From a virus, in the IMG/VR virus record IMGVR_UViG_3300028666_000350, positions 1 to 24,475 of that record: a stretch of 24,475 nt of DNA; one strand, given 5' to 3'. The notes under the pieces are model-generated. The model was not told where the DNA came from. It did no database searches and saw only the letters and a list, made by a program, of their open reading frames with translations. The translations under genes were made by a program, and so were the position numbers. Position 1 is the stretch's first letter; each line of letters begins with the position of its first letter. Positions 1 through 17,671 of this stretch are shown here, piece after piece.

Positions 1-39
1 CACCGTGCAAATAGGTAAGCGGCTGGCCTAAGGTAATCA

Positions 40-74
40 AAATAAAAAGGGTAGTCGTGTGGGGCGACTACCCT
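40..74 (-). terminator. intrinsic terminator closing the leftmost unit
   Basis: Positions 48-57 and 65-74 form a perfect 10-bp stem with a 7-base loop. Read on the minus strand, the stem is followed at once by TTTTTATTTT. This is the classic stem plus U-tract of a Rho-independent terminator. It lies just past the 96-residue gene and the GC-rich segment, where the leftward transcript should end. An open frame starting at 185 also runs through it, so the transcript end is inferred rather than shown. Confidence 0.72.
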
Positions 75-187
75 CTGGGCGGTGGGAACGCCCGTGGGAA
101 AAGGGCTAAAGAAAGGGGCTTTGGTTTCGAAGCCGTGGCCCCTACTGGCACTTCCGTGCGCCTCTGTGTTGGGATGATACCACACAC
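48..187 (-). ncRNA. GC-rich segment with consecutive stem-loops
   Basis: This stretch is much richer in GC than its surroundings and can fold into several successive hairpins. They are 114-119 with 138-143 (AGGGGC/GCCCCT), enclosing a smaller stem 123-126 with 131-134; 148-151 with 156-159, which on the minus strand has a GGAA (GNRA-type) tetraloop; 77-81 with 89-93; and the terminator stem 48-57 with 65-74. It lies between the 96-residue gene and the terminator, so it may be a structured 3' region or a small RNA. The same bases hold a short open frame with an exact Shine-Dalgarno site, so RNA and peptide readings compete. Confidence 0.3.
68..187 (-). CDS. possible 39-residue Pro/Arg-rich peptide
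   Basis: A short frame starting with GTG at 187 encodes 39 residues. It is preceded by an exact AGGAGG (193-198) five bases from the start and begins 12 bases after the stop of the 96-residue gene. Its stop codon lies inside the terminator stem. The peptide is basic and rich in proline and ends in FPRAFPPPRG. Strong Shine-Dalgarno sites are rare in this window, which argues for translation. A second GTG at 185, seven bases from the same site, opens another frame that runs off the window edge without a stop (61 or more codons), and it could be the true gene. No family is recognised. Confidence 0.28.
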   Translation of the reverse strand: MCGIIPTQRRTEVPVGATASKPKPLSLALFPRAFPPPRG

Positions 188-199
188 TGTCGCCTCCTG

Positions 200-490
200 C
201 TATACTCCCTCCTTTCGGGAAATGAGTTTGCCCTCTTGCATGAGCCGTTGAGCGTCGGCCCACGTGAACAAAGGCGTGTCAATGTGCCTGACCAGACGGT
301 CTTCGTACAATGAAATGAGCAAGTACTGGCAAGCAATAAGAATGAAGGTCGGCAAAAACTGTTCAGTTTTGTAACCTTCCCACAACATGATTTCTCGGCC
401 TTTGTCCAGCTTGTAGCTGTCGCAGATTTCCGAGAATATCTGCCGAGGACTCACCTCATATTCAGAAGCGGTTTTTACCAGTGCGTCCAT
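200..490 (-). CDS. hypothetical 96-residue protein with a strong ribosome site
   Basis: The 96-residue product is unrecognised. It is mixed in charge, with a hydrophobic stretch near residues 47-61 (PTFILIACQYLLISL) that is more likely a buried helix than a membrane segment. The ATG at 490 follows GGAAGGTGGTGATGT, nearly identical to the extended consensus AAGGAGGTGAT, so the start is well supported. Almost no other gene here has such a site. A promoter-like pair (TTGAGC, 16 bases, TATAAT) lies just upstream and a terminator downstream. The gene may therefore be expressed independently of the lysis genes, as moron genes of phages are. The function is unknown. Confidence 0.75.
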   Translation of the reverse strand: MDALVKTASEYEVSPRQIFSEICDSYKLDKGREIMLWEGYKTEQFLPTFILIACQYLLISLYEDRLVRHIDTPLFTWADAQRLMQEGKLISRKEGV

Positions 491-523
491 ACATCACCAC
501 CTTCCTAAGAACAACCTCGGCAT

Positions 524-551
524 ATTATACGCCTGTCGGGGATAGGCTCAA
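524..551 (-). promoter_or_regulatory. promoter before the 96-residue gene
   Basis: On the minus strand, TTGAGC (546-551) is followed after 16 bases by a perfect TATAAT (524-529). The predicted start near 517 gives a leader of about 26 bases containing the strong ribosome site. The -10 lies within a near-palindrome (519-533 region, GGC...GCC) that could be an operator. The -35 overlaps the stop of the 28-residue gene. Confidence 0.45.
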
Positions 552-634
552 AAAAACCTGCAAAGAACAAATAGGCCACCGATAACAAAACCAGCACCGT
601 ACACCACCACCACAATTTTTAGAATGAACATCAT
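548..634 (-). CDS. 28-residue single-span membrane peptide
   Basis: This frame is read as ATG at 634 to TGA at 548 and gives 28 residues. After the start MMFILK it is almost wholly hydrophobic (VVVVYGAGFVIGGLFVL) and ends in CRFF, which is one membrane span. Its ATG overlaps the stop of the 48-residue membrane protein in an ATGA junction, so its translation is probably coupled to that gene. It lies in the lysis-type cassette. A role as a holin partner or holin inhibitor is inference from position and topology only. It is too short for ordinary gene callers. Confidence 0.5.
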   Translation of the reverse strand: MMFILKIVVVVYGAGFVIGGLFVLCRFF

Positions 635-777
635 AAAATTGGCTTTTTGAGGGCGATGAACCACAACAAAAAGCTAAAAGAGAAAATAACAGCCGTCTGG
701 TAGCCTAGTTGCCACACGAAAGCGCTGAACATTGAGGTAAATAAAATGACGGCAAAATGTTTGGGGAATAGTGCCAT
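631..777 (-). CDS. 48-residue two-span membrane protein, holin candidate
   Basis: ATG at 777 to TGA at 631 encodes 48 residues. Two hydrophobic stretches are visible, about residues 8-25 (FAVILFTSMFSAFVWQLG) and 28-43 (TAVIFSFSFLLWFIAL), followed by the basic end KKPIL. This fits a small class II-type holin with both ends inside. The start is four bases after the stop of the cysteine peptidase, and the stop overlaps the start of the 28-residue peptide. No Shine-Dalgarno site is seen, so coupled translation is likely. Small membrane proteins beside a lytic enzyme are typical of phage lysis cassettes. No holin family is recognised by sequence. Confidence 0.6.
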   Translation of the reverse strand: MALFPKHFAVILFTSMFSAFVWQLGYQTAVIFSFSFLLWFIALKKPIL

Positions 778-781
778 TGTG

Positions 782-1693
782 TTATTGCTGACTGAAAAGG
801 CTCAAAAAAAAGTTTACCAGTCTTTGTTGCCACGAAATGATTGCGGGATTCGGTATCATTTGCCCTGGATTAGTAGGATGCGGAACAAACTTAGTAACGA
901 AGGTAAAAATGTCTACCATTCTTGGAGTACCTAGATAGTTGTTGCTGTCAAAATTCTGAACACCATTAGGCACCTCAGTTCCGAAACTTTGAAGTGCTTG
1001 GATAGTCGGCACGCTGTTAGAAAGATACGCACGATGGGCGCACATAAAATGTCCTTCATCGCTTTGTCCGGCATAACGGGGATAGTTTGAAAGCCAAAAT
1101 TCGGGCGCACCACCGTCAAAATGTGAGTCAATATGCCAGAGGACTGCTACATTATCCCTGATTGCCTCAGCAATGGCCTCAGGAGTGTTATCAACGCTTA
1201 CTTTGACCCAACCACCGTACTTTGTTTCCAAAATCATATTAGGGGGCGTTTCAAACGAAGTATCCAAGAAAAGCGCCTCATCGGTTGTGCCGTCGGGATA
1301 ATATGAGGATAGGATAGCTTCTTCTAAAGCACCGACATTAGCAATTTGATTTTGTAAATCTCCATCAGTTGCACCTCCTCCGTAAGGGTAACGAATAGGA
1401 GCATAAATACTTCTTGCCGAAATTTCTGTATAGGGGAGATTGTGTAAAACGGCATAGACAATGCCGACCCAATAAGCACCGGCCTGTCCTGAGCAGGAAT
1501 ATGATTGGTGCTGGTCTTTGATTTTAATGGGGCCGATTTTAGAGAGCCGTGCGTCAATCATCGCAGGGTCATTGTTCCAATCAAACGGTTTTGCCGCACG
1601 AGCTAGTTTAGAACGAAAAACATTGCGTATTTTATGCGATATCTTCGCTCTTAAATCAGTGCGTGCACCACCTTGTAATTTACAAGGGTTCAT
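782..1693 (-). CDS. papain-like (C1-type) cysteine peptidase
   Basis: The 303-residue protein has the layout of papain-family peptidases. Gln61 and Cys67 in KDQHQSYSCSG match the oxyanion Gln19 and catalytic Cys25 of papain at the same six-residue spacing. His215 in EGHFMCAH fits the catalytic histidine. The segment usually reading NSWG appears as QSFG at 235-238, so the third catalytic residue (Asn) is replaced by Gln235. The N-terminal 40 residues are basic, and the C-terminal tail is hydrophobic (LVNFFLSLFSQQ). No signal peptide is seen. The ATG overlaps the stop of the XhlA-like gene (ATGA), and holin-like genes follow, so the enzyme sits where an endolysin is expected. It could cleave peptide cross-bridges, host surface proteins or virion proteins. 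Confidence 0.8.
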   Translation of the reverse strand: MNPCKLQGGARTDLRAKISHKIRNVFRSKLARAAKPFDWNNDPAMIDARLSKIGPIKIKDQHQSYSCSGQAGAYWVGIVYAVLHNLPYTEISARSIYAPIRYPYGGGATDGDLQNQIANVGALEEAILSSYYPDGTTDEALFLDTSFETPPNMILETKYGGWVKVSVDNTPEAIAEAIRDNVAVLWHIDSHFDGGAPEFWLSNYPRYAGQSDEGHFMCAHRAYLSNSVPTIQALQSFGTEVPNGVQNFDSNNYLGTPRMVDIFTFVTKFVPHPTNPGQMIPNPAIISWQQRLVNFFLSLFSQQ

Positions 1694-1941
1694 TTTTGTA
1701 ATTGGCTAATCTGTGTTTTTAATTCAGAGCGGGCGGTTTGAAAAGTATAAATTACTAACCCTATAATAGCACCGCCAATAAGTATCACCATAGATGACCC
1801 TCCTAAAATACGATTACGCCAACCCTCCAATGAAGTGACACGGCCATTTGTTCGCATGGTCTGCGCTTCAATACGCTTCAAATACTCAATCACCTCTGTG
1901 TGTTGAGCATCAAGTTCACGATTGGAGTAAGGAGTTTCCAT
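1690..1941 (-). CDS. XhlA-like coiled-coil and single-span membrane protein
   Basis: The 83-residue protein has a helical N-terminal half with the phrase RIEAQTMRTNGRVTSLEGWRN, one membrane span at about 50-68 (SMVILIGGAIIGLVIYTF) and a short helical tail. This is the arrangement of the phage haemolysin XhlA/accessory-holin type, and the R-x-x-x-L-E-x-W-R pattern is common there. The ATG at 1941 was chosen because it follows the stop of the preceding 39-residue gene by one base (TGACATG). A TTG at 1956 would add five residues. The 3' end overlaps the peptidase start. The protein probably acts with the holins in lysis at the inner membrane. Confidence 0.7.
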   Translation of the reverse strand: METPYSNRELDAQHTEVIEYLKRIEAQTMRTNGRVTSLEGWRNRILGGSSMVILIGGAIIGLVIYTFQTARSELKTQISQLQK

Positions 1942-1942
1942 G

Positions 1943-2062
1943 TCATTGGCACGCAATACACACTTTAGCCTCGTCGTCTGCGGGGTCTTCGGGAATAGTA
2001 AGAACTCGTGATTTAATCTTTTTGAACTCTTCTATCTTCTGTTGTTTTTGTTCTTCGGTCAT
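1943..2062 (-). CDS. 39-residue hydrophilic protein with CxxC end
   Basis: ATG at 2062 to TGA at 1943 encodes 39 residues. The first half is a highly charged helix (TEEQKQQKIEEFKKIKSR), followed by an acidic stretch (PEDPADDEAK) and the end VCIACQ with a CxxC pair. It begins eight bases after the fibre gene stop and ends one base before the ATG of the XhlA-like gene, filling the gap almost exactly. That tight fit is the main support. No family is recognised, and the CxxC could bind metal only with a partner. Confidence 0.5.
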   Translation of the reverse strand: MTEEQKQQKIEEFKKIKSRVLTIPEDPADDEAKVCIACQ

Positions 2063-2070
2063 GTTCGTTA

Positions 2071-4542
2071 TTATACATCACTGATAACACCGCCAGTAGA
2101 AGCATTGGTAAATGGGTTGCCCCTCTTCCCTGAATCAGCGGCTCCCGTCGTAGAAGAAAATGTTAAACCAGATTCAAGACGAGTAGAATCAACAACCAGT
2201 TGACCCATTGTTGCGACAGACGCCACTGCCGCAATCACCATCGCCTTGTTGTTGGCATTGTCGTAGTCTTCACAGTATAAAATCGGATTACCGCCCGTGT
2301 ATTCAATGTACGGGTCGGCAACCTGGTCGGCTCCCATCAATGGAGTGCCGTCAGCGGCCCAGATAAGGTCGGGGCGAACAAACATAACGATATCGCCAGG
2401 ACCGTGGAGATAGTTTACTCCGTCCCAGGTTCGTGCCATATAGTTTATAGAATAAGCGGCAGACGGTGCTGGGGAACCCGCAATGTCTCCATGCCCCCAT
2501 TTATACGTACTGCCGTCCGGTGATGTCCAGCTCCACGGACCACCGAGAATCTGGCCAGTTTTGAAGTCGGGAGCCATAGATGCGACAACCGTAGCGGCCG
2601 CTGTTTCGTTCACTAACTGCGTTCCGCCCTTGAACGTGAGCGTTGTGGTGCCGACAGTAGCCACGACAAACTGCCCGTTGTTGCCGGAATTGGTGAACCC
2701 TTTGATTGAAATGGTATCAAGAACCGCCACGCCGTCTCCAGAAAAACTACCTGATGCGCGCGTGAGTGTCGCGGTAGAAGCGGTGATAGTTAAATTCCCC
2801 GTGCTCGCTAGGGTGCGGGCATTTTGCGTTTGGCTGACGTAACTTAATTCTGCCGATTGAGCCGGAGAACCTTTTAGAGAACCACCATCAGTCGCTTGGG
2901 TTGGGAGGGCCATTGAAAACATATTAGGCCCTGTGGCAGTTCCCATTTGAAACGATACGCCGCCGACACCTGATGCCTCAATATCCATCTGCACTTGCGT
3001 TCCCGCTTGGTAGATGAAGTGATTGCCGAAACCGTTATTGCCCCACGTACTGTTTTTGAGGTTGTTGAGCAGTGTTATCGGCGTTGTCCATGTCTCACCA
3101 CCGTCAGTGGAGAAGGAACAGCGATAAGGATAGTTGGTGAAGTCGTTGACCCACACCATCATAAAGCCGTCGCCCATGGCATACCCTCCGCAAGCCACGG
3201 TATCACCAGTATTGGCCGCGTCGGTAATGACCGGATTGGCCGCGTCACGAGTCCAGTGGATACGGTCAGCAGAAGTAGCATGACAAATGGTGTGGTGGTT
3301 TAAGCCAGCGTCGTAGAACATGTGCCACGTACCATTGAATTTTCCGTTGGTAAGGCCGGGCAAGATTGTTGACTCTTGCGCCATGCCCTGCGTACCTGAA
3401 AGACCAGCTCTTTCTGCCGTCGCCGTGCCGTCAATACACGTAATTGGCTTTGCCCATTTACCCTGGACAGCGAGACCATTCTGAATACCATCCAACTGCG
3501 TGATGTTGTCGTAAGGTTGCATGAGGAATACCCCACAGTTGATTTCCCACGCTGTCAGTTCAACATTGTGAAATGTCGGAACCATGATGAAGGCAACGGA
3601 GGCAAGTGAGCCGGGGCCGCTACCCGTATCCAATCCGCCAAAGGTGATTTTCGCCGTGAGAGCGTTGGAATATGCCGCCGTGCTTGTTGGGTCAAAGTAA
3701 TAACGGATACCCTGAATGAAGACCTGAAAACCCGTTGGGCCGCAAACAATTGCGATGTGTTCAATGGTTGAGTTAAATACGTTGTTGGTGGTGAACGTGC
3801 TTGTCACGCCGCCTACTTTTCTGGTGAACGTAAGACCGTTGGAACCGTTGCACTGAATGAACCAATTGTTATTAGAATCTCCGTACCACGAAGCGATGTA
3901 ACCAGTTCCGGCCTGTAGCAACCAGAGTTTGAGAGTGAAAGCGGCAGGCATGGCGATTGCAGGCGTCTGCATGGCACCACTGCCACCAAATTGAACACCG
4001 GAGTTTGAACCACTAAAAGCAATAGCGTCCGGCATATTCCCCGCAAATTGACCAATTCGCAAACGATATTGGCGTCCCCAGCCCAAGTCTGAAATGGAAC
4101 GTGTGCCACCTATGGTGCCGGATTTTGTGAGGCTCCCCGTTATGCCCGTGGAATCAACGTATGGGCCGGTAGTATCGGCAAAGGTTGTCCATACGCCAAT
4201 AGAACCACGTTCGGTTGATTTTGGAATATCAAGGGTATTCTGGCTATTGGAAACAGCCGAAGCTCCAGTATTGCCCCACTGAAGAAGCAGGGAAGTGGCG
4301 GAGGTATCATTCGGAATACGGATACGCATCCGAGCTATTGAACGAAAAATGAATCGGTCAAAAGAATAGTTGCAGAGGGTCGTACCATCGGCTTTAGTGA
4401 CACGCCAGTCACTGCCGTCGGGATTGCTCGCACCCCAAATAGGATGGTTGGGTCCGACGTCGAAAAACATCGTCTTATTCGCTGGGTGTGCGCCAGAGTA
4501 TTTGATATTAACCGTGTCTTGATAGTGCCATCCTGAGAGCAT
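2071..4542 (-). CDS. tail fibre/spike with lectin-like and sialidase-like parts
   Basis: The 823-residue protein is likely a receptor-binding or host-surface-degrading virion protein. Residues about 180-325 look like a LamG/concanavalin-type sandwich (FTLKLWLLQ, EHIAIVCG, GFQVFIQGIRYYF). From about 395 a beta-propeller region follows, with GTWHMFYDAG, IHWTRD and an Asp-box at 478-485 (STDGGETW), as in sialidases. Near 743-763 DPYIEYTGG and ILYCEDYD resemble GH43/GH32-type blades. Residues about 575-655 form a separate small beta domain (SISIKGFTN-type, NNGQFVV, TTLTF) that seems to interrupt the propeller. No catalytic residues can be named with certainty. The gene stands at the end of the structural operon before the lysis-type genes. 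Confidence 0.7.
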   Translation of the reverse strand: MLSGWHYQDTVNIKYSGAHPANKTMFFDVGPNHPIWGASNPDGSDWRVTKADGTTLCNYSFDRFIFRSIARMRIRIPNDTSATSLLLQWGNTGASAVSNSQNTLDIPKSTERGSIGVWTTFADTTGPYVDSTGITGSLTKSGTIGGTRSISDLGWGRQYRLRIGQFAGNMPDAIAFSGSNSGVQFGGSGAMQTPAIAMPAAFTLKLWLLQAGTGYIASWYGDSNNNWFIQCNGSNGLTFTRKVGGVTSTFTTNNVFNSTIEHIAIVCGPTGFQVFIQGIRYYFDPTSTAAYSNALTAKITFGGLDTGSGPGSLASVAFIMVPTFHNVELTAWEINCGVFLMQPYDNITQLDGIQNGLAVQGKWAKPITCIDGTATAERAGLSGTQGMAQESTILPGLTNGKFNGTWHMFYDAGLNHHTICHATSADRIHWTRDAANPVITDAANTGDTVACGGYAMGDGFMMVWVNDFTNYPYRCSFSTDGGETWTTPITLLNNLKNSTWGNNGFGNHFIYQAGTQVQMDIEASGVGGVSFQMGTATGPNMFSMALPTQATDGGSLKGSPAQSAELSYVSQTQNARTLASTGNLTITASTATLTRASGSFSGDGVAVLDTISIKGFTNSGNNGQFVVATVGTTTLTFKGGTQLVNETAAATVVASMAPDFKTGQILGGPWSWTSPDGSTYKWGHGDIAGSPAPSAAYSINYMARTWDGVNYLHGPGDIVMFVRPDLIWAADGTPLMGADQVADPYIEYTGGNPILYCEDYDNANNKAMVIAAVASVATMGQLVVDSTRLESGLTFSSTTGAADSGKRGNPFTNASTGGVISDV

Positions 4543-4576
4543 AGAGGGAATTTTTTAATTAGTTTGCCCCGCGTAA

Positions 4577-5041
4577 TTAGTTATCGCGAACCACTACGGT
4601 ACAGGTGTATGCCTGAGATGAGGTTGATGATTTCCCTGTAATCAGAAGCATACTTGCTGCCGACATGGGAATGTTGTCGAGACCCTCATAGTTAGAATTA
4701 TAGGTATATGAACCACTATCAAGAAGAACGGAACGCTGGGTCAATTCTCCCGTCGAAGTGTTATAGAGACACAGAGGAATCCATGTTACTCCTCCATCAG
4801 GAGAATAGTAATAGTAGAACGTGGCATTATTACCTGAAGCAGCGGTTAGATACGCCGACAGTTGAGATTTTGCCATGCTATTAAGACCGGCAATCAGAAA
4901 CACTGGCGTCTCGGTAGCATTAAGATTTCCCAGAAGAGCATTAAAGGAGGTGGAAATTAAAGAACCTTGCCACGAGAGGGCAGACTTGCTCGCATCATTT
5001 GCTACAAATCTCGCTGGGTCATATTGCACGATTGAATTCAT
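4577..5041 (-). CDS. 154-residue virion-associated protein with an Asp-box
   Basis: The family is not recognised. The sequence is rich in Ser, Thr, Tyr and Asn and has strand-like segments (ATFYYYYS, SYTYNSN, YTCTVVVRDN), suggesting a beta-sandwich virion protein. Residues 80-87 (SPDGGVTW) match the Asp-box S-x-D-x-G-x-T-W seen in sialidase-type propellers, and the next gene downstream carries one too. A single box cannot make a propeller, so it may mark a surface loop. The ATG is one base after the stop of the 67-residue gene (TAATATG). It could be a tail adaptor, capsid fibre or decoration protein. Confidence 0.6.
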   Translation of the reverse strand: MNSIVQYDPARFVANDASKSALSWQGSLISTSFNALLGNLNATETPVFLIAGLNSMAKSQLSAYLTAASGNNATFYYYYSPDGGVTWIPLCLYNTSTGELTQRSVLLDSGSYTYNSNYEGLDNIPMSAASMLLITGKSSTSSQAYTCTVVVRDN

Positions 5042-5042
5042 A

Positions 5043-5246
5043 TTATTCAGATGATTGGTCTACGACCTTTTCCTCTACTTTTTCCTCTACTTGCACCTCC
5101 TCAAAAAGAGGAGCGTGCTTATCGAGAATTTCTACCGCATCAGCGTCAGTTACTTCAGTTTCCTTTGTTTCCAACTGAATGGTTCTGCCATCATTCATCT
5201 TCACGATATGCGGAACCATCCAGGCGTGTTTGAGAGTTATTTTCAT
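5043..5246 (-). CDS. 67-residue acidic-tailed protein of the head module
   Basis: The product is small, with a basic N-terminus (MKITLKHAW), a middle with VTDADAVEILDKHAPLF and a highly acidic, repetitive tail (EEVQVEEKVEEKVV). A longer frame extends to 5474, but it overlaps the 233-residue gene out of frame. The ATG at 5246 is one base after that gene's stop (TAATATG), so it is taken as the start. The stop is one base before the next ATG. Small proteins of this kind often lie after the major capsid gene. No function can be named. Confidence 0.65.
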   Translation of the reverse strand: MKITLKHAWMVPHIVKMNDGRTIQLETKETEVTDADAVEILDKHAPLFEEVQVEEKVEEKVVDQSSE

Positions 5247-5247
5247 A

Positions 5248-5949
5248 TTAGCGATACCATTCGAACGAATAAGTACCAGCGAGAGTGCTTGTGGCACTAA
5301 CAATGGCGTACTGAGCAGTATTGAAGGCACCCACAGAAGATGAGGTGGCAAAACCAACGACATATTCACTCGGACCAACAAGAATCTCAACTTGTGAAGC
5401 AGAGCCAGGATATTGATTGGAACGAGTGTCAGCAATTGCTCCCGATGTGTAGGCAAAGAGCGATGAGGTAGCAAGTGAGTTCGTGCTAATCAAACTCGGT
5501 GAGATGTTATTTCCGTTCGGACCGTTGTAGGAAATGCCCGTGGCTTGCGTGGAAGTACCAACCATAAGAGTCGTGGAAGCTGCGGCATTAGTGCCGTAGA
5601 TTTCCGAGAAAACTAAAGTTGAAGTCGCGCTAAATGGATTTTGAATAGCGAAGAGCGTGGTTGAACCCTGATAACTTGTGGTAACAGGATTACCATTCTG
5701 AATCGAGTAGTTGTTTGCAGGACCAAAAGTACCTGAAGTCACTATTTGGTTTAATCCGTTCTCATTCAAACCGCCATTTGGGTCAACAGGATTTGTAGTG
5801 TACTTGAGTGCCAAACCAGTTTGAGAACTGACCGAGGAGGACTGGGAGAAAGCTCCCGCCGTAGCCTGCCGGTGTGTAAGCATATACACACCGAAGACCA
5901 CAAGCACAACAATTAAGATACCGATAAGAATTTTACTTGTAGTGTTCAT
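5248..5949 (-). CDS. membrane-anchored Ser/Thr-rich surface-type protein
   Basis: The 233-residue protein begins with a basic tip and a strong hydrophobic segment (about residues 7-24, ILIGILIVVLVVFGVYML), followed by HRQA. This could be an uncleaved signal anchor. The rest is rich in Ser, Thr, Asn and Gly with repeated TSTL/ATST/ATSS words and beta-strand character (VEILVGPSEYVVGF, YSFEWYR). It lies between the capsid gene and two small structural-type genes, yet a membrane anchor is unusual for a virion protein. It may be a capsid fibre or a protein displayed on the infected cell. An AT-rich leader with TAATTA (5956-5961) replaces a Shine-Dalgarno site. No family is recognised. Confidence 0.65.
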   Translation of the reverse strand: MNTTSKILIGILIVVLVVFGVYMLTHRQATAGAFSQSSSVSSQTGLALKYTTNPVDPNGGLNENGLNQIVTSGTFGPANNYSIQNGNPVTTSYQGSTTLFAIQNPFSATSTLVFSEIYGTNAAASTTLMVGTSTQATGISYNGPNGNNISPSLISTNSLATSSLFAYTSGAIADTRSNQYPGSASQVEILVGPSEYVVGFATSSSVGAFNTAQYAIVSATSTLAGTYSFEWYR

Positions 5950-5976
5950 AGCTTTTAATTATGAGGCTAATAACAC

Positions 5977-7119
5977 CTAGCCCGTGAAGGAGATGTTGTT
6001 TCCGAGGGAGGAAAGAACGTGCCTCCACTCCACGAAACCGTAACTGAATTCTTCCTTAATCTTGTACATGATGGAATCAGTGTAGATATCGCGTTCTGTG
6101 CGTTGCTGGAGGGGGACGAATTCAATACGAACCAAACCTGAACCTACTTCTGGGTCGCGGTTTTCCTCATCAACGAGATGCCACTGGTAGCCCTGAAGAG
6201 AGGTTGTGGCAGAGGTAGAAGGAATGTAGTACGAATCGGAAAGATACGGAGAACAGATGGTGGAAGAGAATTCACCCTTAACAATGTTGACATCGTTGTT
6301 GTTAGAACCAGGAATCCACTCTGATTGCTGAATAGTTTGAGCAACCAAACCAAGAGCGTTCTTCGGAGGAACCAAGAGACAGGTCTTACCACCAAAACCA
6401 GGCATTGCATCACCGACATCGTCTTTGAAGGAAGCACCTTGTTCTTTGGCTGACCAGTAGTTTGCGTACGAGAGAGAAAGACAAGCAGAACCATTTCGAA
6501 CGACGTTAGACTGCGTTGCACCACCATCGGCACGAGCATGGACAGTAGAGAACAAAGCTTCACCGAGAGCTGAGAAGTTGGAGTCCAAACCACGGTTTCC
6601 ACGAGCGAAGAAGCGACCAGAAGCCACGCCACCAGGATACGAAGAAACAGCGGTGTAACCCAAGTTCAATACTTCAAACGGGTCAATGATATTGTAACGG
6701 TCAATTTTCTGCACCAATTTGAGAGCGCGATTCAGGATAGTCTTGTAGTCCTTATCCTCTTTCATTTCGCGTTCCTCAGGAACTTTCAACTGCTCAGCGA
6801 GTTGATTGTCGGGGTCATAGACGGCAGTCTCGTAGTTACGAATGAATGTCGCGTCCTGATATGTACCGCCAGCCTTACGAGCTAACATTTGCTGAAGACC
6901 AGTTGTACCGATATGACGCCATACGGCGCGTTCACCTTCAGTCGTTTCTGACGTGACGTTGGTGAAGATGGTCATAGCCATCGGGTCGGTATCAACTAAT
7001 TTGTAATTCTTAATTTGATTGAGTGACTGCAAACCTTGGTCAGTGATGGCATCAAATTTGGCACGGAAGCCAACAAGAAACGCGTCAATAGGGCCTTGGT
7101 ATAGTGTGTCGTTGTTCAA
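5977..7119 (-). CDS. major capsid protein, probable HK97 fold
   Basis: The 380-residue protein follows scaffold-like and decoration-like genes, the standard place for the major capsid protein, and its length fits the family. An N-terminal helical region is followed by a long charged segment (EQLKVPEEREMKEDKDY), like the E-loop and spine helix of HK97-type subunits. The C-terminal part (YKIKEEFSYGFVEWRHVLSSLG) resembles the last strand of the P domain. The family call rests on this plus context, not on a clear motif. The only standard start is TTG at 7119, directly preceded by ATT. The first in-frame ATG is at codon 47, and no Shine-Dalgarno site is visible. Confidence 0.75.
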   Translation of the reverse strand: MNNDTLYQGPIDAFLVGFRAKFDAITDQGLQSLNQIKNYKLVDTDPMAMTIFTNVTSETTEGERAVWRHIGTTGLQQMLARKAGGTYQDATFIRNYETAVYDPDNQLAEQLKVPEEREMKEDKDYKTILNRALKLVQKIDRYNIIDPFEVLNLGYTAVSSYPGGVASGRFFARGNRGLDSNFSALGEALFSTVHARADGGATQSNVVRNGSACLSLSYANYWSAKEQGASFKDDVGDAMPGFGGKTCLLVPPKNALGLVAQTIQQSEWIPGSNNNDVNIVKGEFSSTICSPYLSDSYYIPSTSATTSLQGYQWHLVDEENRDPEVGSGLVRIEFVPLQQRTERDIYTDSIMYKIKEEFSYGFVEWRHVLSSLGNNISFTG

Positions 7120-7158
7120 AATAGTAAATTTTATGTTCTAATAATCTTCTAATAATAA

Positions 7159-7734
7159 CTAGATAGTTGCGGCTTGCTGAAAACGACCAATAACTTTGGT
7201 TAATGCACCTGAAGAATCAGCAACTGCTTTCGTGCTATTGAACACGCTGGTTGTAGCAAGAGTAGAAGCTTGGGTAAGCAGACCGCTTATCTGCGTATTT
7301 GTGCTTGGGCTGATGATATAAGAAGCAACATCAAGAGTTACTGCAACAGCAGTAATGGTTGTGCCACTGCTGGTGCCGACATCGGCAATCCAATCAATCG
7401 GTTCGGAACACTTAATGTAATCAACAACGTAAGGAACTGAAGAAGTTGTGTTGGTAGCACCTGTGACAGCTGAAGTTACTGCTGACAATTCCTGTTGGCC
7501 ATTCAACTGGCGAACGGCTACAACAACACCCAACAGGGCTGTGGTTGCAGAAGTGGAAGCAGAAGCCGGTGCAACATAACTACCTTTTACCGCAGTACCA
7601 GGAGTGGCGAGAGTAGCAACAGTGGGGATAATCACATCTCCCACGTTTACCTGACCACTCGTCCAGTTAGTATTGTTGGCAATAATTGCCGTATACTTCT
7701 GAATTTTCTCATCATTTGTAAGAGGACGAATCAT
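7159..7734 (-). CDS. probable capsid decoration protein
   Basis: The 191-residue protein is rich in Thr, Ala, Ser and Val with short strand-like stretches (VGDVIIPTVATLAT, LLGVVVAVRQLNG, VDYIKCSEPIDW). It lies between the scaffold-like gene and the major capsid gene, where head decoration proteins are commonly encoded, and its composition suits a beta-rich capsid cap. The ATG at 7734 has no Shine-Dalgarno site but an AT-rich leader. A hairpin sits 25 to 45 bases upstream and may protect or limit the downstream capsid message. The decoration role is inferred from context. Confidence 0.6.
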   Translation of the reverse strand: MIRPLTNDEKIQKYTAIIANNTNWTSGQVNVGDVIIPTVATLATPGTAVKGSYVAPASASTSATTALLGVVVAVRQLNGQQELSAVTSAVTGATNTTSSVPYVVDYIKCSEPIDWIADVGTSSGTTITAVAVTLDVASYIISPSTNTQISGLLTQASTLATTSVFNSTKAVADSSGALTKVIGRFQQAATI

Positions 7735-7756
7735 TTTGTTATTAAAATTAACGATT

Positions 7757-7779
7757 AAAAGCCTGAACTTGCGTCAGGC
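7757..7779 (-). terminator. hairpin between scaffold and decoration genes
   Basis: Positions 7761-7766 and 7774-7779 form a perfect 6-bp stem (GCCTGA/TCAGGC) with a 7-base loop. On the minus strand TTTTAAT follows. The T tract is short, so this may be a leaky attenuator or a 3'/5' stabilising hairpin rather than a full stop, since the decoration and capsid genes lie just beyond with no visible promoter of their own. Confidence 0.4.
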
Positions 7780-7805
7780 CATTCAATCTCGTATGAAGAA
7801 AAAGT

Positions 7806-8492
7806 TTACTTTAGGTCAGTCGTCGCGGTGTTGTAACTCTTCCAAGTTCTGTCGCTCTGACTCAATCCCAATCCTCGTTCTACCTCTTCGGCAGTTAAAG
7901 GCATTGGCTTTGCTTTAGCGGCATTAACACGGAGAACTGCAACAACTGCGGGAGAATAGGTCTTTTGTTCACCACCGCCTCCACCTGAGGCATTAGCACC
8001 AACTCCTCCCATACGGAAGTTAGCGGCACCAGCTTCAAGATTTCTAGAGTTCTCTTCGGCGTTAATGAGCCGGTCAGCAAACGCTATTGCGTATGCACGA
8101 GGGTAGACCGCGTCCACATCGACTGTCGAAACATCGATGGTTTTTGCGATTTCCTCTACTTTGGCCGCATCTTCGGGAGAGAGATTCTTGCGTTGGATGA
8201 AAAGAGCACCTTGTTTAATCAGAGCCTCTTTCTTGAGGTTCAGCTGAACATCACTGACGATTTTCTTATGTTGTTCGGAAGCGTCCTCGCCAATCTTCTT
8301 CTGTGCTTCTCTAAGACCTTTAACCGCGTCTAACTCCTTCTTGTGAGTTTCCGTGGCTTCTTGGGCCTTCTTACTGGCAGCAGAACTGGCTGTTTTCCAA
8401 AACTCCGCCTTCTTCGCATCATCTAGGCCCTTAATGGCCTCGTCAATGTTCTCACCTGCGATAAACTTATCTACAATAGGTTGAATGTCCAT
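7806..8492 (-). CDS. capsid scaffold-like coiled-coil protein
   Basis: The 228-residue protein is mostly helical and charged. Residues about 30-105 form a likely coiled coil rich in Lys, Glu and Ala (KKAQEATETHKKELDAV, QKKIGEDASEQHKK). A Gly-rich linker near 162-175 (GVGANASGGGGG) precedes a C-terminal part that could bind the capsid protein. This layout and the place before decoration and capsid genes fit a scaffold protein. No protease domain is seen. It is the first gene after the promoter at 8621-8646 and has a leader of about 120 bases, with a hairpin just before the start. Confidence 0.65.
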   Translation of the reverse strand: MDIQPIVDKFIAGENIDEAIKGLDDAKKAEFWKTASSAASKKAQEATETHKKELDAVKGLREAQKKIGEDASEQHKKIVSDVQLNLKKEALIKQGALFIQRKNLSPEDAAKVEEIAKTIDVSTVDVDAVYPRAYAIAFADRLINAEENSRNLEAGAANFRMGGVGANASGGGGGEQKTYSPAVVAVLRVNAAKAKPMPLTAEEVERGLGLSQSDRTWKSYNTATTDLK

Positions 8493-8509
8493 AACGCTTT
8501 TTGATTAGT

Positions 8510-8530
8510 TAATTAGAGGCGGCCTAATTA
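8510..8530 (-). promoter_or_regulatory. leader hairpin before the scaffold gene
   Basis: TAATTAG (8510-8516) and CTAATTA (8524-8530) form a 7-bp stem around a GC-rich loop (8517-8523), starting 18 bases upstream of the scaffold ATG. It could stabilise the leader or tune initiation. The stem is AT-rich, so it is weak. Confidence 0.25.
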
Positions 8531-8620
8531 TTGAAATAACGCCCTGAACCTAAGTTTTACTTCCTTTCTTCCAACAAAAGCGTTTCTATTGGAATGGGAT
8601 GAAGGCTCCCCTTTACCTCT

Positions 8621-8646
8621 AGTATAACATGATTTTCTTCTGTCAA
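8621..8646 (-). promoter_or_regulatory. promoter of the capsid module
   Basis: On the minus strand a perfect TTGACA (8641-8646) and TATACT (8621-8626) are present, with an upstream TG one base from the -10 (8628-8629), giving an extended -10 (TG-n-TATACT). The spacer is only 14 bases, shorter than the usual 16-18, so recognition may depend on the extended -10. A start near 8614 would give a leader of about 120 bases before the scaffold gene. This is the largest gap between confident genes here (8493-8693), consistent with a promoter. Confidence 0.5.
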
Positions 8647-8693
8647 GGACTTTTTTGATTGATGAGGGCATACTCCACCATTTATAAAAGTTC

Positions 8694-8762
8694 CTACTTC
8701 TTTTTTCTAAAAGAAAAATCTAGATTATATCTTTTCCTAATATATTCATTACTAGAAGGCAT
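8694..8762 (-). CDS. possible 22-residue basic peptide
   Basis: ATG at 8762 abuts the stop of the 53-residue gene (TAAATG) and the frame runs to TAG at 8694. The 22 residues are basic and aromatic and end in FSFRKKK. The seamless junction resembles other gene joints in this window. The length is too short for any statistical support, and the stretch could be untranslated. Confidence 0.2.
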   Translation of the reverse strand: MPSSNEYIRKRYNLDFSFRKKK

Positions 8763-8924
8763 TTATTTTAACTTCATCTTCAACTTGACCGTATTTGCCA
8801 GTCCATGAGGAGAACCAATATTCGGCATCTTAACACCACGAATAGATACCGATTTAACCGTCGGTACTTTCATTGCCGTATTGATAATCTTCATTTTAGG
8901 CATAGAAATTCCTTTGAACGCCAT
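8763..8924 (-). CDS. 53-residue highly basic protein
   Basis: ATG at 8924 to TAA at 8763 encodes 53 residues with no acidic residue at all and about a dozen lysines, with repeated short words (MPKMK, AMKVP, VKMPN, KLKMKLK). It could bind nucleic acid or the phosphate-rich packaged DNA. The start lies four bases after the stop of the 124-residue gene, and the leader contains TAATTA (8934-8939). It is the last clearly coding frame before the capsid promoter. No family is recognised, but the composition and the close fit argue for a real gene. Confidence 0.55.
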   Translation of the reverse strand: MAFKGISMPKMKIINTAMKVPTVKSVSIRGVKMPNIGSPHGLANTVKLKMKLK

Positions 8925-8928
8925 TTTA

Positions 8929-9303
8929 TTACTTAATTATTTGTTTCATTCCATCCGACCAAGACCTTACTCCCTCTAGAGGGTCGGTCTCTTTTTTGAC
9001 TTGAGGAATGACTTTTTTAACTTCCGGTTCTTTCGGCATGGTTACCCAGCGATGAAAGAAACGAAGATTGTACATAACCCCGTTATAGAAATCTCCTTTA
9101 TTGGGATTATCGGCTTTAGCTTTGAACGTGGCATACATCATATGCACAAGCGTTTTCTCAAAACCTTGACCAGCACGCTTGAGAAAATCTACCGTCGAAG
9201 GCTTGGCATCATTAGGAATAAGCGATAGAGAGTCAACAAGGCTCATATCATCAAACTCAGATTTATATCGCTTATAGAGGAATTTTAGAATCCACTGTTT
9301 CAT
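8929..9303 (-). CDS. hypothetical 124-residue protein after the portal
   Basis: The protein is mixed, mainly helical, with a basic start (MKQWILKFLYKRYKSEF) and a central helix FEKTLVHMMYATFKAK. The C-terminal third is Lys/Glu/Pro rich (PKEPEVKKVIPQVKKE). Its ATG overlaps the stop of the portal gene (ATGA, 9300-9303), so the two are probably translated together. Position suggests a head assembly or connector role, but no family motif is visible. Confidence 0.65.
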   Translation of the reverse strand: MKQWILKFLYKRYKSEFDDMSLVDSLSLIPNDAKPSTVDFLKRAGQGFEKTLVHMMYATFKAKADNPNKGDFYNGVMYNLRFFHRWVTMPKEPEVKKVIPQVKKETDPLEGVRSWSDGMKQIIK

Positions 9304-11357
9304 TGTGAGATAGTTTGTGCCTGATTAAACGGATTCATTTGAGATTGGATTGGGGTTTGACCATTTCCACCGTTTGAAAGACCTCCGTTCTGTTGACCCA
9401 TAACACTTTGTTGTTGCTGGCCGAGAATGTTAGCGCGATTAGCCCCATTAGTAGGTACTTGAGGATTGCCAACATAGTTACTTCCCCATGAAGCCATGAG
9501 TTTTGGCAATACCTGAGCTGAAGAGTAATCCATAGGATGTTCACCAAGAGCTTCCAAGTGACGGAGAAATACCTTACCTGGGTCTGCAATACCCATAGGA
9601 ATGTATGTCTGAATCATCGGTTGAATGACCGACTGAATAAACATTGCCTTCTTCATTTCCGAAGTCTGTTCGGGTTCCAACTCAATCTCCCCAATCATAA
9701 ACTCCAATTTCTCAATAATATCAATGGGGGCCTCGATAATTTCAGTCATTCTGCCATTCTGAATGGACTTCTTTACGGATTCTAGGAAGAGGTCGAGAGG
9801 CCGTTTTGCTTTATCAACGAGGCGGATTTCCATATCTCCAACACCACCAAGAGAAAGCGGTGAGTTCGGAACGAGTACGGCTTTTATGATTGCTCCTTTT
9901 TCAACACTGTATTTTTCGGCTGTGTAATACTGAAGCATTGTCTTCAATACCAAGAGAAGTTCCTGACGAATAAGGTCATAGTACATGAGCATGGTATTGC
10001 CCATGGCTTGCTGACGAGCCATATTGAGCGTATCCACTTCGGCGGCGGATTTGGGCTGAATAGAGGGGATAGACTGACTCATGCCACCTTGAGCAAATCC
10101 GCTCATCATATTCTGAGTGGAATTGAATGTTTGGAAGAAATCGTTTCCTGCCGGTTGAAGATTGAATTCCTTGTACGCGTTCACATCCTGAACGGGGATT
10201 ACTTTCTTTGCTCCGAAAATAACGCTCGGTGACTCCAAATCAGAGGTCAGAATTGGCGGGTCAATCATGCGTAATTCTTTTTCGAACAAGAGGGTCCACT
10301 GCATGTTAAGGAGTTTATGCGGGTCTTTTATCTTGAACGGTGTAGGAAGACCGTAGGCGAGTTTTTCATCAAGTGCTTCACCTATTCCCCAAGCGAACGG
10401 AAGCATTTTATGGTCATCTGGCATCGGAGGCACAATCGCATTTTCTCCACGACCAAGTTTATTGAGCAACATACCATTAGCTACGATACCGAATTTATCG
10501 TTATCAGTGTCAAAACCACGAAGAACTTCAATCTTGTTCAGAGTTGTAATGCCAGTACCACCAAGTAAACGATAGTAAAGAGAATCTTCAGCAATACGAT
10601 TTCCAGGAATAACATACTTGTGGTCAGGATACATCCCAAATTCACGATGAAAGTCAGCGGGTTCCATTTGACTACGCCAGATAACTTTTCCTTGCTTTTG
10701 GATGTTTCGTTCATAGATTTTGGGAAGATAAATGTCTTCAATCGGCACTAGGGTAGATTGGACATCGTTAAACCACGTCACTTCTTTTGAATCTAAAGAG
10801 AAATTTCCGCTCGTTGGGTCATAGTTTTTCAGATACGAGTAGTTCTTCTTCTCTTTATTGTAGCCAACATACAGACAGACCGTGCCATTTACGAAACCAT
10901 AAAGAGCTTGCCAGAACTTCTCAACTTTATCGTTTGATTTAGTTCGCCAGTGTTGGTAGAGACCATTCAAGACCTTCATACCATACTCATCCAGTTTGTT
11001 CCCATGAATCCGGGGCTTGACACCAAGAGAAGTGAGTCGGCCCATCAAGTCCATTATTTCCTTCCGAGTGAAAGGAAGAGAGAACTGTAGTCCTAGACCT
11101 GCTAAGTCTTCTGAGGCAGTAATGTTGGAGTTCCAAAAGAGTTCACGAGATTGTCGCCAGACTTCTTCCAGCGACGTAAACTGCATTTGTCTGACTGCTC
11201 CACCACGAAAGACCCGATAGCGGTAGTAATCAGTAATCAAGGCCGTGACGTAATCCTGCTCATAGGCGGCAGGTTTGTAGAGTTCTTCAGGACGATACCT
11301 TCCCTTACCATTATCACGGATTGAGGAGTAAGACGGGTCAAGAGCGTCGTTTTGCAT
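9300..11357 (-). CDS. portal protein
   Basis: The 685-residue protein fits the size and position of a phage portal, the dodecameric ring through which terminase pumps DNA. It lies downstream of the large terminase and upstream of scaffold and capsid genes. The N-terminal part (YEQDYVTALITDYYRYR, FWNSNITASEDL, FTRKEIMDLMGRLTSLG) and the following ALYGFVNGTVCLYVGYN segment resemble large P22-like portals, with a wing and stem region rich in helices. The C-terminal 50 residues are Gln/Asn/Gly rich (QQQQSVMGQQNGGLSNGG) and probably disordered. The ATG is one base after the preceding stop (TAACATG). The call rests on context and overall pattern, since portals are poorly conserved. Confidence 0.75.
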   Translation of the reverse strand: MQNDALDPSYSSIRDNGKGRYRPEELYKPAAYEQDYVTALITDYYRYRVFRGGAVRQMQFTSLEEVWRQSRELFWNSNITASEDLAGLGLQFSLPFTRKEIMDLMGRLTSLGVKPRIHGNKLDEYGMKVLNGLYQHWRTKSNDKVEKFWQALYGFVNGTVCLYVGYNKEKKNYSYLKNYDPTSGNFSLDSKEVTWFNDVQSTLVPIEDIYLPKIYERNIQKQGKVIWRSQMEPADFHREFGMYPDHKYVIPGNRIAEDSLYYRLLGGTGITTLNKIEVLRGFDTDNDKFGIVANGMLLNKLGRGENAIVPPMPDDHKMLPFAWGIGEALDEKLAYGLPTPFKIKDPHKLLNMQWTLLFEKELRMIDPPILTSDLESPSVIFGAKKVIPVQDVNAYKEFNLQPAGNDFFQTFNSTQNMMSGFAQGGMSQSIPSIQPKSAAEVDTLNMARQQAMGNTMLMYYDLIRQELLLVLKTMLQYYTAEKYSVEKGAIIKAVLVPNSPLSLGGVGDMEIRLVDKAKRPLDLFLESVKKSIQNGRMTEIIEAPIDIIEKLEFMIGEIELEPEQTSEMKKAMFIQSVIQPMIQTYIPMGIADPGKVFLRHLEALGEHPMDYSSAQVLPKLMASWGSNYVGNPQVPTNGANRANILGQQQQSVMGQQNGGLSNGGNGQTPIQSQMNPFNQAQTISQ

Positions 11358-11358
11358 G

Positions 11359-11628
11359 TTAAACTATGGTTTTTCCTACCCTTTTCTCCATATAAAGATT
11401 GGCGTTGTCCTCGTTACCGAGATTGGTTGATAAACCTATTTTCATGAGGGGTTCAAACATATTGGCTCGTTCTCGTTTTGGAATGGAATAAAATATTTGA
11501 GTTGTAAAGCCCTGTATCATCCTGCCACGTTTATGAATAAGGTAATTCTCGTGAAGAGTATCGTACCAACACTCCATACCTAACCTCGGCAACGTAGCCT
11601 GAAGAAACAAGACAATCTCATTTCTCAT
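11359..11628 (-). CDS. hypothetical 89-residue protein between GroEL and portal
   Basis: The product is unrecognised. It has Trp and several aromatic residues (CWYDTLHENYLIHKRG, TTQIFYSIPKRERANMF) and looks like a compact alpha/beta protein. The ATG at 11628 is four bases after the chaperonin stop, with AGGG directly before it, too close for a normal Shine-Dalgarno site. The stop is one base from the portal ATG. Its position in a chaperonin-to-portal run suggests coupled expression. Confidence 0.6.
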   Translation of the reverse strand: MRNEIVLFLQATLPRLGMECWYDTLHENYLIHKRGRMIQGFTTQIFYSIPKRERANMFEPLMKIGLSTNLGNEDNANLYMEKRVGKTIV

Positions 11629-11632
11629 CCCT

Positions 11633-13195
11633 TTATTTTACCACGGATTTAAGGTCTTTGATGGCGGCACCAAGCGTCAAGAAGAGGCCCGCGGTAGAAA
11701 CAGCGTTGGTTAGAACTGCTTTTGCCACGAGTACAGGGTCAATAATGCCCTTCTCAATGAGGTTCTTGGTGTACTTACCTGAATCAGTGTCAAAACCATC
11801 AGTTTCATTGATTTTTGAGGCATCGTATTCAACGCCAGCGTTCTTTATTAATATTTCAACAGGTCGAGAGGCGGCACGAGCAAGTATACCCGAACCCGTT
11901 GTTTTGAGTTTTTCATCAACTTCTTTGCAGATGGCTCGTAAAGTAAGACCGCCTCCAGTAATGTAACCTTCGGCTTTTGCGGCAGTAACAGCGGCCACGG
12001 CATCGTCAATCTTATCCCTGCGATACTTCATTTCCGCTTCAGTAGCGGCACCAACCTTAATAACCACAGACGATGAAGTGAAGCGAGATAGTCTATCTTT
12101 GAGTTTTTCCTTTGATTCACCTTTGTATTCTTTAAGGTCATTATTAATAGCTTCAATACGGGCACTATAGCGGCTCTTTTCGTTATCAGTACGGTCACCT
12201 TTGATAATCGTAATCTTATCTTTGGTAATAACAACCTTGCGGACACGAGCAAGATGGGTCATAGAGAACTTTGAATTACTGTCTGGTGTTTCCAACGTAC
12301 AACCGGTAAATTCGCCCAGGTCTTCAAAGACATCTCTATCCCGAGGCATTTTGACCACACCGGCAATGAATTTGTCTTTTAACTTGTTCTGAATAACCGT
12401 TGCCAGTGCCTCTGATGCCATATCCTCACAGATAATTACACATTGGGCAATTTCATTCTGTGATATTTCTTTGAGAATGGGGAAAATCTCCTTATTGAGA
12501 ATAAACTTCTTGCTCGTAATAAGAACGTGGACATCATTGAAGATGGCCTCAAATTTTCCAGGATGGGTGATGAGCATAGGCGAAATGTAACCTTGGTCAA
12601 AGGTAAATCCTTCGTTCTTCTCAGAGGTAGTTTCACCAGCGGCAGACTCTTCGACGAAGACCTTACCTGTTTCACCAGAATCAATAACGGCCCGAGAAAC
12701 CAATTCAGCAATCGTTTCATCTTCAGAAGAAATCCTAGCGACTTTTAGGAGTTCCTTATCATCGGTAATCTTAATGGCTTTTTTATCCAGTAGTTTGATA
12801 ACCTCATCCTTAGCCTTATCCAATTCCCTGCGAATAGACATCGGGTCTACATCTTTAATCTTCATGCCCTCATTGATGATTTCATATGTCCAAATAGCTG
12901 AAGAAGTTGTGCCGTCTCCAACCTCGTAGTTTGTCTTGTTACAGGTCTGCTTGATAATATCAGCCCCCATTCTCTCCATCTTGTCTTCAGGGAAGATTTG
13001 CTGAGCAATAGACACACCGTCGTTCGTAATCTTCGGCCACGCCTCTTCACCCATGATTGTCTTATCAATGGGAACGTAGATGACATTCCTGCCCTTAGAA
13101 CCGAGGGTGACTTCGACTGCTTTAGCTACCGTCTCAATACCCTTAAACAACTTCTCTCGTGCGTCTTCGAAATACACTTGGTTTTGTAGTATCAT
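11633..13195 (-). CDS. groEL: phage GroEL-type (group I) chaperonin
   Basis: The 520-residue protein is a full group I chaperonin (E. coli GroEL has 548). Equatorial ATP-site motifs are intact: TLGSKGRN (30-37), ITNDGV (56-61), VGDGTTS (92-98, Asp94 matching E. coli Asp87), and DDAVAAV with Asp398 at the same number as the catalytic Asp of E. coli, then GGG (414-416). The apical FDQGYISP matches FDRGYLSP. The apical PGFGDRRK motif is replaced by a shorter PRDRDVFEDL, about four residues fewer, close to the substrate and GroES groove. The C-terminal GGM tail is absent (ends KDLKSVVK). It probably folds phage structural proteins, as phage T4 gp31 and the phage EL chaperonin do. The ATG overlaps the previous stop (ATGA). 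Confidence 0.95.
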   Translation of the reverse strand: MILQNQVYFEDAREKLFKGIETVAKAVEVTLGSKGRNVIYVPIDKTIMGEEAWPKITNDGVSIAQQIFPEDKMERMGADIIKQTCNKTNYEVGDGTTSSAIWTYEIINEGMKIKDVDPMSIRRELDKAKDEVIKLLDKKAIKITDDKELLKVARISSEDETIAELVSRAVIDSGETGKVFVEESAAGETTSEKNEGFTFDQGYISPMLITHPGKFEAIFNDVHVLITSKKFILNKEIFPILKEISQNEIAQCVIICEDMASEALATVIQNKLKDKFIAGVVKMPRDRDVFEDLGEFTGCTLETPDSNSKFSMTHLARVRKVVITKDKITIIKGDRTDNEKSRYSARIEAINNDLKEYKGESKEKLKDRLSRFTSSSVVIKVGAATEAEMKYRRDKIDDAVAAVTAAKAEGYITGGGLTLRAICKEVDEKLKTTGSGILARAASRPVEILIKNAGVEYDASKINETDGFDTDSGKYTKNLIEKGIIDPVLVAKAVLTNAVSTAGLFLTLGAAIKDLKSVVK

Positions 13196-13344
13196 TTCTT
13201 TTTACGTTTGGTTAATAATTTTCTCTTGTTAGGAGCACGTTTGGGAAGGCGTTTCGGCGTATCAGCTTCAAATTCGGCAATATATTTATGCAAAGCAGAG
13301 GTGGAATAAAACTTTTTACGTTGGGCTTGGCTTTTGAAGGGCAT
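13192..13344 (-). CDS. 50-residue basic phage protein (MPFKSxAQRxKFY type)
   Basis: ATG at 13344 overlaps the HNH stop (TAATG), and its TGA at 13192 overlaps the chaperonin ATG (ATGA), so it joins the two genes exactly. The N-terminus (MPFKSQAQRKKFY) and the middle (YIAEFEADTPKRLPKR) follow a pattern I recognise from small proteins recurring in many phages, usually of unknown role. The C-terminus is almost pure Lys/Arg. The protein may bind nucleic acid. The double overlap and family-like start make it a confident small gene despite its length. Confidence 0.75.
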   Translation of the reverse strand: MPFKSQAQRKKFYSTSALHKYIAEFEADTPKRLPKRAPNKRKLLTKRKKK

Positions 13345-14123
13345 TAGACTAAAAGATTATGTTTAATTGCATATTTCTCAAATGAGAATTTTCTAAAACA
13401 CTTCCTACGACCCCAAGTATCAGTCTTGCGGTGACATTCCAAACAAAGAGTTTGACCATTTGAAACATCGAAACGTAATTCAGGATACAAAGCCAACGGT
13501 TTTATATGATGTGCAGTTAAGTATACACTTTTTCCTTTTCCATTTCTATCACCACAATCTTGGTAAGTATAGTCATCTCTAGCATAAACTTTGTCTCTCC
13601 AGATTTTATATTCAACTCCGTGATAACGTGCCTTTTGATTACTTGATATTTTCCCCTTTCCTAAATTCTTTTGTCTTTGTATTTCTGACAACCGCCGCCT
13701 CATAATATCAGAACCCATTATTCTCTTTTGTACTACAGACATTTTACCCTTAGTGAAGATAGTATGTTTTCTCCCCAACATCCTTGTCCCCATATTCTTT
13801 ATATTTATCTTTCCGGCACATGTTTTGGAACAAAATCTATTTCCTTTTCTTTGCTTATATGGAGGGAAATAAAACTCTTTTCCACAAACTTCGCATTTCT
13901 TATACCCATACTTTTTTACGTTTCTTCTCCTAAAATCTTCATACTTACATTCATTGGAGCAAAACTTCGGTAAACTTTTTTTTATTCTGTATAAATTGTA
14001 ATACCTTTCCTTTCCACAAATCTTGCAAATAATTGTTTTACCCGTCTTTCGTACTTCTGCATAACAGAGAGTACAACCCTTACATCCTGAAAAGATTTTC
14101 TTACCATGTTTACAAAATTTCAT
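13344..14123 (-). CDS. HNH homing-type endonuclease with zinc ribbons
   Basis: The 259-residue protein has N-terminal zinc-binding pairs (C33xxC36, C55xxxC59; C77xxC80, C98xxxC102), a NUMOD3-like stretch near 116-135 (LGRKHTIFTKGKMS) and a C-terminal HNH core: HH at 205-206, Asn222, CLECH at 227-231. The usual CxxC before the HNH reads Tyr187-x-x-Cys190, so one zinc ligand is lost while C227 and C230 remain. Activity is thus uncertain. The gene looks more AT-rich than its neighbours, and it sits between terL and the chaperonin cluster, where free-standing homing endonucleases often insert. It overlaps terL (ATGA) and the 50-residue gene (TAATG), so the insertion is well fitted to the operon. 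Confidence 0.88.
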   Translation of the reverse strand: MKFCKHGKKIFSGCKGCTLCYAEVRKTGKTIICKICGKERYYNLYRIKKSLPKFCSNECKYEDFRRRNVKKYGYKKCEVCGKEFYFPPYKQRKGNRFCSKTCAGKINIKNMGTRMLGRKHTIFTKGKMSVVQKRIMGSDIMRRRLSEIQRQKNLGKGKISSNQKARYHGVEYKIWRDKVYARDDYTYQDCGDRNGKGKSVYLTAHHIKPLALYPELRFDVSNGQTLCLECHRKTDTWGRRKCFRKFSFEKYAIKHNLLV

Positions 14124-15607: not shown

Positions 15608-15739
15608 TATCTGTTCAGCCCGCTTAAAATCATCAGGCAGGAATTCCTTAACTTGACGATAGCGTTCCCGTAACCGAGCAGTGTACTCAGGGGAAGAAAA
15701 CCACTCGTCTACTTTTTTTATATTAATGGTAGTGGGGGA

Positions 15740-16691: not shown

Positions 16692-16769
16692 GTCTTTGTA
16701 TGGTCTGATTATACTCCAGTCAATGGTACAATGAAAGAAAGAGTCAATTATTCATTAACAATTTTATAT
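16692..16769. promoter_or_regulatory. divergent promoter region
   Basis: This gap separates the leftward packaging genes from the rightward 74-residue gene. On the minus strand a perfect TATAAT lies at 16708-16713 without a good -35. On the plus strand TGGTACAAT (16724-16732) is an extended -10. The word CAGTCAATGGT (16717-16727) is identical to one inside the promoter at 17655-17665 and could be an operator. Both promoter calls are tentative. Confidence 0.35.
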
Positions 16770-16994: not shown

Positions 16995-16997
16995 AAC

Positions 16998-17024: not shown

Positions 17025-17025
17025 G

Positions 17026-17082: not shown

Positions 17083-17083
17083 G

Positions 17084-17669: not shown

Positions 17670-17671
17670 GA

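Follow-up and report, generated by a model that had tools for sequence, protein, structure and literature searches.

Superinfection-exclusion proteins of phages are small and lineage-specific, and they may be expressed as separate units. As loci, accessory or 'moron' insertions have been described for Salmonella and lambdoid prophages (PMC7067206). Here we analysed a candidate locus of this type in IMGVR_UViG_3300028666_000350, a linear virus record of 24,475 bases taken over its full length (the window), whose minus strand holds nearly all larger ORFs.

The window encodes a terminase (phrog_2, E 2.6e-26 in PHROGs), a GroEL (11633-13195, minus strand; phrog_5725, E 2e-101) and a GroES-like protein (17084-17419, minus strand; E 3.5e-05, under the curated cut-off). 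The portal and the major capsid protein were assigned from position and relatives, the capsid protein having a weak PHROG match only (E 0.075) and the portal no notable one. Against phage records the terminase is distant, with 32-35% identity among the 20 matches listed and none of 203 records reaching 80% coverage, and the portal found no match. IMG/VR scans recovered two tiers of relatives, near ones that are 45-62% identical in the portal, the terminase or the capsid protein, and farther ones whose terminases are 23-34% identical; scans of genome_contigs recovered no terminase relative. The GroEL and GroES-like genes sit inside the late block and are also carried by several related records. 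Between terminase and GroEL lies a homing-endonuclease-like gene (13344-14123, minus strand; HNH by eye, NCBIfam match under cut-off), with a homologue in G004 only among G001, G004 and G005 (blastp E 1e-43). A strong terminator-like hairpin on both strands (16998-17023) separates the GroES-like gene from the terminase block. In two relatives a RecA-like gene, recognised by eye, stands on the opposite strand beside GroEL (L070:2969-3958 and L002:3639-4604); the ORF list of the window has none next to its GroEL. A patescibacterial host is no more than a guess, prompted by the threonine- and serine-rich proteins of that group. The word GroEL is absent from the main texts of two papers on phages of Patescibacteria (PMC12911398 and PMC10746230). 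Literature searches on leaderless transcripts with Patescibacteria (including PMC12641178) and on Parcubacteria phages with terminase and GroEL brought up nothing about this lineage.

The features of the locus and of its upstream neighbours are the following.

1690..1956, minus strand: 88-aa membrane-type protein, whose blastp homologues in G004 and G015 have E values of about 5e-10 and 9e-07
782..1693, minus strand: 303-aa protein, putative lysis peptidase by position only
631..777, minus strand: 48-aa hydrophobic ORF, next in line after the 303-aa gene and, judging from position, a possible small lysis protein
548..631, minus strand: possible 27-aa hydrophobic ORF, overlapping the end of the 48-aa ORF
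551..524, minus strand: sigma-70-like promoter site (TTGAGC at 551..546, 16-nt spacer, TATAAT at 529..524)
503..493, minus strand: near-perfect extended Shine-Dalgarno (SD) site AAGGTGGTGAT, ending two bases before the ATG at 490
490..200, minus strand: 96-aa ORF, ATG to TAG
68..187, minus strand: possible, doubtful 39-aa GTG ORF with a good SD site (-12.1) and its stop inside the terminator stem
76..46, minus strand: intrinsic terminator with a 12-pair stem, a 7-nt loop and a T-rich tail TTATTTTGAT

A sequence-only reading had seen here a self-contained unit with its own promoter, ribosome site and terminator, of the kind typical of late-acquired phage genes. Promoter site, SD, ORF and terminator do stand in this order, all on the minus strand. 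The TTGAGC-16-TATAAT site is present as described, with 10/12 matches; the chance of at least as good a match in a given 70 nt on the right strand is about 0.8% in a first-order model, and promoter-like sites are not enriched over window 1-20000 (31 found versus 33.1 expected). Because the -35 element overlaps the TGA that ends the possible 27-aa ORF, the candidate promoter does not lie in an empty gap. Nor is a private promoter-like site special in this lineage, since some relatives have TATAAT close before ordinary genes. The terminator was likewise found where it had been claimed. Window 1-20000 has 20 terminator-like sites, a number at chance (18.4 expected), and none of the others has as long a stem. 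The minus strand between 16998 and 76 contains no other strong terminator, only weaker sites of 5-8 pairs, and for this reason upstream late transcripts probably run through the 96-aa gene and end at 76..46 too. The components of the unit thus stand as proposed, but the late transcript probably uses the same terminator, which makes the unit self-contained only in part, and the earlier reading is partly supported.

The frame of the 96-aa ORF is the best of its six against the codon usage of the other window genes (z 2.15 versus shuffles), and its third-position G+C of 0.61 is the highest among the 26 listed ORFs. The possible 39-aa ORF is not coding-like (z 0.48). The 96-aa protein has no match in Pfam, PHROGs, PADLOC or PDB, and one chance-level match in NCBIfam (E 0.1; 12.8 bits, where the cut-off is 100); tblastn searches of phages and plasmids were empty. 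An IMG/VR peptide scan, whose reach is limited to close relatives, gave 33 pattern matches of which none was confirmed, and blastp against the ORFs of G001, G004 and G005 gave chance matches only (best E 1.1). AlphaFold, run on the single sequence, returned an all-helical prediction of low confidence (mean pLDDT 55), and a maximum hydropathy of 1.56 over 19 residues does not clearly indicate a membrane-spanning protein. A likeness of its C-terminal part to a DUF2829/Tad2-type motif was considered; no search backs it. The role in exclusion, defence or takeover that had been suggested for the gene found nothing in its favour: there are no detected relatives, no superinfection-exclusion or defence family was matched in Pfam, PHROG or PADLOC, and the structure prediction is of low confidence.

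To compare the locus with its relatives, 20 related virus records were searched. The 96-aa protein has a relative in none of them, while the same search recovers the gene in the window; many of the 20 are fragments short of the equivalent place, which six span. This spot begins where the structural block ends and extends to a conserved tail gene of 362-419 aa, present at its far side in 6/6 records (blastp against the G014 copy, E below 1e-54). The window ends 45 bases past the terminator, short of the tail gene, and its place was equated with the spot by gene order and by the 88-aa homologue, found in G004 and G015 only. Five of the six records taken to span the spot (G001, G004, G005, G014, G015 and G018) hold other genes there, so that the unit, checked for presence or absence as had been proposed, is not conserved. 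In G014, the nearest relative by portal identity, TATAAT stands 5 nt before a 64-aa zf-FCS ORF, followed by a second 64-aa ORF, unrelated to the 96-aa gene; the SD of this ORF, at -17.5, surpasses all others among 8437 start contexts. The G014 spot also includes a membrane-type ORF of 58 aa and one of 80 aa on the opposite strand. The spot of G004 holds two small ORFs (56 and 73 aa), a terminator, more TATAAT sites and genes that by eye are holin-like and lysozyme-like; G005 has a 239-aa protein there, along with a 56-aa ORF and another that by eye is holin-like. In G015 there are a membrane-type ORF and several small ORFs with GGAG-type sites, these small ORFs lying between two strong terminators; the weaker GGAG-type sites of G004 and G015 were picked by eye. 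The G001 spot extends over about 7 kb of mostly opposite-strand small genes, from a lysozyme-like gene to the tail gene (L005:4224-11496), while that of G018 measures about 30 bp, next to which we recognised no lysis gene. The small genes of G014, G004 and G015 resemble the 96-aa gene in standing on the same side of the conserved tail gene, in their GGAG-type start sites and in adjoining promoter-like or terminator-like sites, but they have no sequence kinship to it and one is a zf-FCS zinc finger.

The near-perfect extended SD site claimed for the 96-aa gene was confirmed at 503..493, with a computed duplex energy of -14.7, all SD energies being calculated with an assumed anti-SD sequence. 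For random 22-mers (n=1500) the mean was -3.8, the 1% quantile -11.7 and the lowest value -15.9. The other 25 listed ORFs of the window range from +0.2 to -7.5, and 20/25 are weaker than the random mean, which bears out the contrast that had been drawn with the coupled genes upstream. When first starts were ranked over the window and ten related records (490 called ORFs, each 60 aa or longer), the 96-aa gene had the strongest and the sole one at or below -14, a ranking that leaves out the G014 64-aa ORF (-17.5), missed by the longest-ORF caller. Late-gene entries of the same records (n=70) have a mean SD energy of -2.4; 2/70 reach -10 at the first start and 4/70 when the best of several starts is allowed. 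The 88-aa gene of the window itself has an internal start at -14.0. When all start contexts of ORFs of at least 40 aa were considered, 65/8437 reached -11.5, of which 4 were among the 175 contexts in the spots; the other 61 lie mostly inside coding sequence, by our reading, and strong sites away from the spot also precede small ORFs, at least one in G019 (-14.0) and one in G020 (-11.7). The SD is a real outlier among the start signals of the phage that carries the 96-aa gene.

The set of 490 genes, and that of 566 used below, came from a simple longest-ORF caller with partial cover of some records (20,000 of 21,051 bases of G016; 20,000 of 22,087 of G020). No protein is counted twice among the 70 late entries, although overlapping stretches may have contributed a few truncated copies.

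SD-poor starts were found on both strands of the lineage. The idea that early genes are SD-led and late genes are not was rejected, opposite-strand genes being not consistently stronger (8 related records, p 0.04 to 0.92). In 1048 start contexts, corresponding to 566 genes of the window and ten relatives, TATAAT occurs exactly six bases before the start codon 10 times versus an average of 1.7 per position. These 10 cases come from G005 (L045), G014 (L060, L062), G015 (L064, L065) and G018 (L068, L069), and 3/10 have an extended -10 TG; the control is imperfect, the hexamer TAATTA also occurring 8 times at this distance. The window itself has no TATAAT 3-12 bases before its start codons. The position of the hexamer suggests that this phage lineage makes leaderless transcripts. 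G004 has eight small proteins (minus strand, L048:17643-19057 and L049:947-2789) with a C-terminal LEN, which in six cases is part of ITLEN, probably because the 3' ends of their genes supply the following gene with an SD-like GGAG.

We consider it probable, with some reserve, that the end of the structural and lysis block is a variable accessory spot of the moron type, whose 96-aa occupant is SD-led and preceded by a putative host-type promoter in an SD-poor lineage of tailed phages carrying GroEL and GroES-like genes. The absence of the gene from relatives (0/20), its outlying SD, the variability of the spot and the composition of the first 550 bases fit an accessory, late-acquired gene, as had been proposed. 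In the composition check that had been recommended, window 1-550 is the least typical of 97 stretches (lowest Markov likelihood), by a small margin (-1.399 versus -1.387), and the overlapping stretch 226-725 ranks only 37th.

The same surroundings could be read as those of a lysis module, with the 96-aa gene as its last member, a small regulator or helper given its own promoter for early or high dose. The gene comes directly after a putative lysis cassette formed by the 88-aa membrane-type protein, the 303-aa protein and the hydrophobic 48-aa (maximum hydropathy 1.79) and 27-aa ORFs, and relatives have holin-like, lysozyme-like or amidase genes in or beside the interval, some recognised by eye. 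The 303-aa protein has no match in Pfam, PHROG, NCBIfam or PADLOC, blastp finds no relative of it in the related records, and the G004 protein at its position has weak peptidase matches under cut-off. We regard the lysis assignment as rather unlikely, as the hydropathy of the 96-aa protein does not clearly make it membrane-spanning and the protein occurs in 0/6 records spanning the place. Still less likely, indeed very improbable, is that the functional element is a small regulatory RNA at 200..46 with the 96-aa ORF merely as its upstream neighbour. This stretch is G+C-rich, ends in the terminator and overlaps a match to the suhB/mmgR small RNA (RF00519) at 113..34, but that match is sub-threshold (24.1 bits, cut-off 41), all Rfam families stay under their cut-offs there, and the folding z of -3.37 falls to -0.89 once the terminator is removed, no better than shuffles. 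A structured RNA after the 96-aa gene was rejected on these grounds.

A false assembly join to DNA of another organism over about 1-550 would account for both the different start signals and the composition of the contig end. The unit lies at the very end of a metagenomic record, its stretch is the least typical by the small margin given above, its SD is unlike those of its neighbours, and the sub-threshold suhB/mmgR match could be counted on the same side. That match is however missing from the whole-window search, and window 1-600 found one 33-base chance match in phages (E 0.2) and none in plasmids. Furthermore, G014 has the same kind of arrangement, TATAAT and a small SD-led ORF, at the equivalent place and well inside its contig, and we judge a join improbable.

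If the accessory-spot reading is right, a host sigma factor would start a leadered transcript near 517, with a leader of about 27 nt, and the ribosome would bind the near-perfect SD in this leader, giving strong translation of the 96-aa protein. Expression of the gene, as transcript and as protein, would then not depend on the late genes, in which SD sites are scarce; read-through from the late genes would also cover it, and both transcripts would stop at 76..46. On this reading the candidate promoter would work and the 96-aa protein would be abundant. We infer that the protein would act on the host cell, for example by excluding or inhibiting competitors or host functions, and not in the virion; this role follows from the accessory nature of the spot and not from the sequence of the protein. 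A more speculative and, in our estimate, unlikely extension is that two start modes coexist, SD-poor and partly leaderless for the lineage's own genes, with leader and SD for exchangeable cargo at one spot. A strong SD would in that case mark cargo expressible at high dose outside the phage programme, possibly in another type of host cell, one dependent on SD sites.

These results mark a variable cargo spot in an uncultivated GroEL-encoding phage lineage and indicate that a gene at such a spot can carry start signals unlike the phage's own genes. Should expression data agree, SD strength could pick accessory genes from such genomes without homology.

Compared with superinfection-exclusion proteins, the 96-aa gene is alike in its small size, its possible separate unit and its lineage-specificity; its product differs in having no sequence relative and in being not clearly membrane-bound or secreted. 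With the moron loci described in PMC7067206 it shares the kind of locus: a small gene that has its own promoter-like site, stands among lytic genes, differs from relative to relative and lacks a structural-protein match. Those are prophage loci; here the terminator is probably shared and the lineage is otherwise SD-poor. The 96-aa unit probably belongs to an already known class, the phage accessory locus, and the contrast in start signals is its main point.
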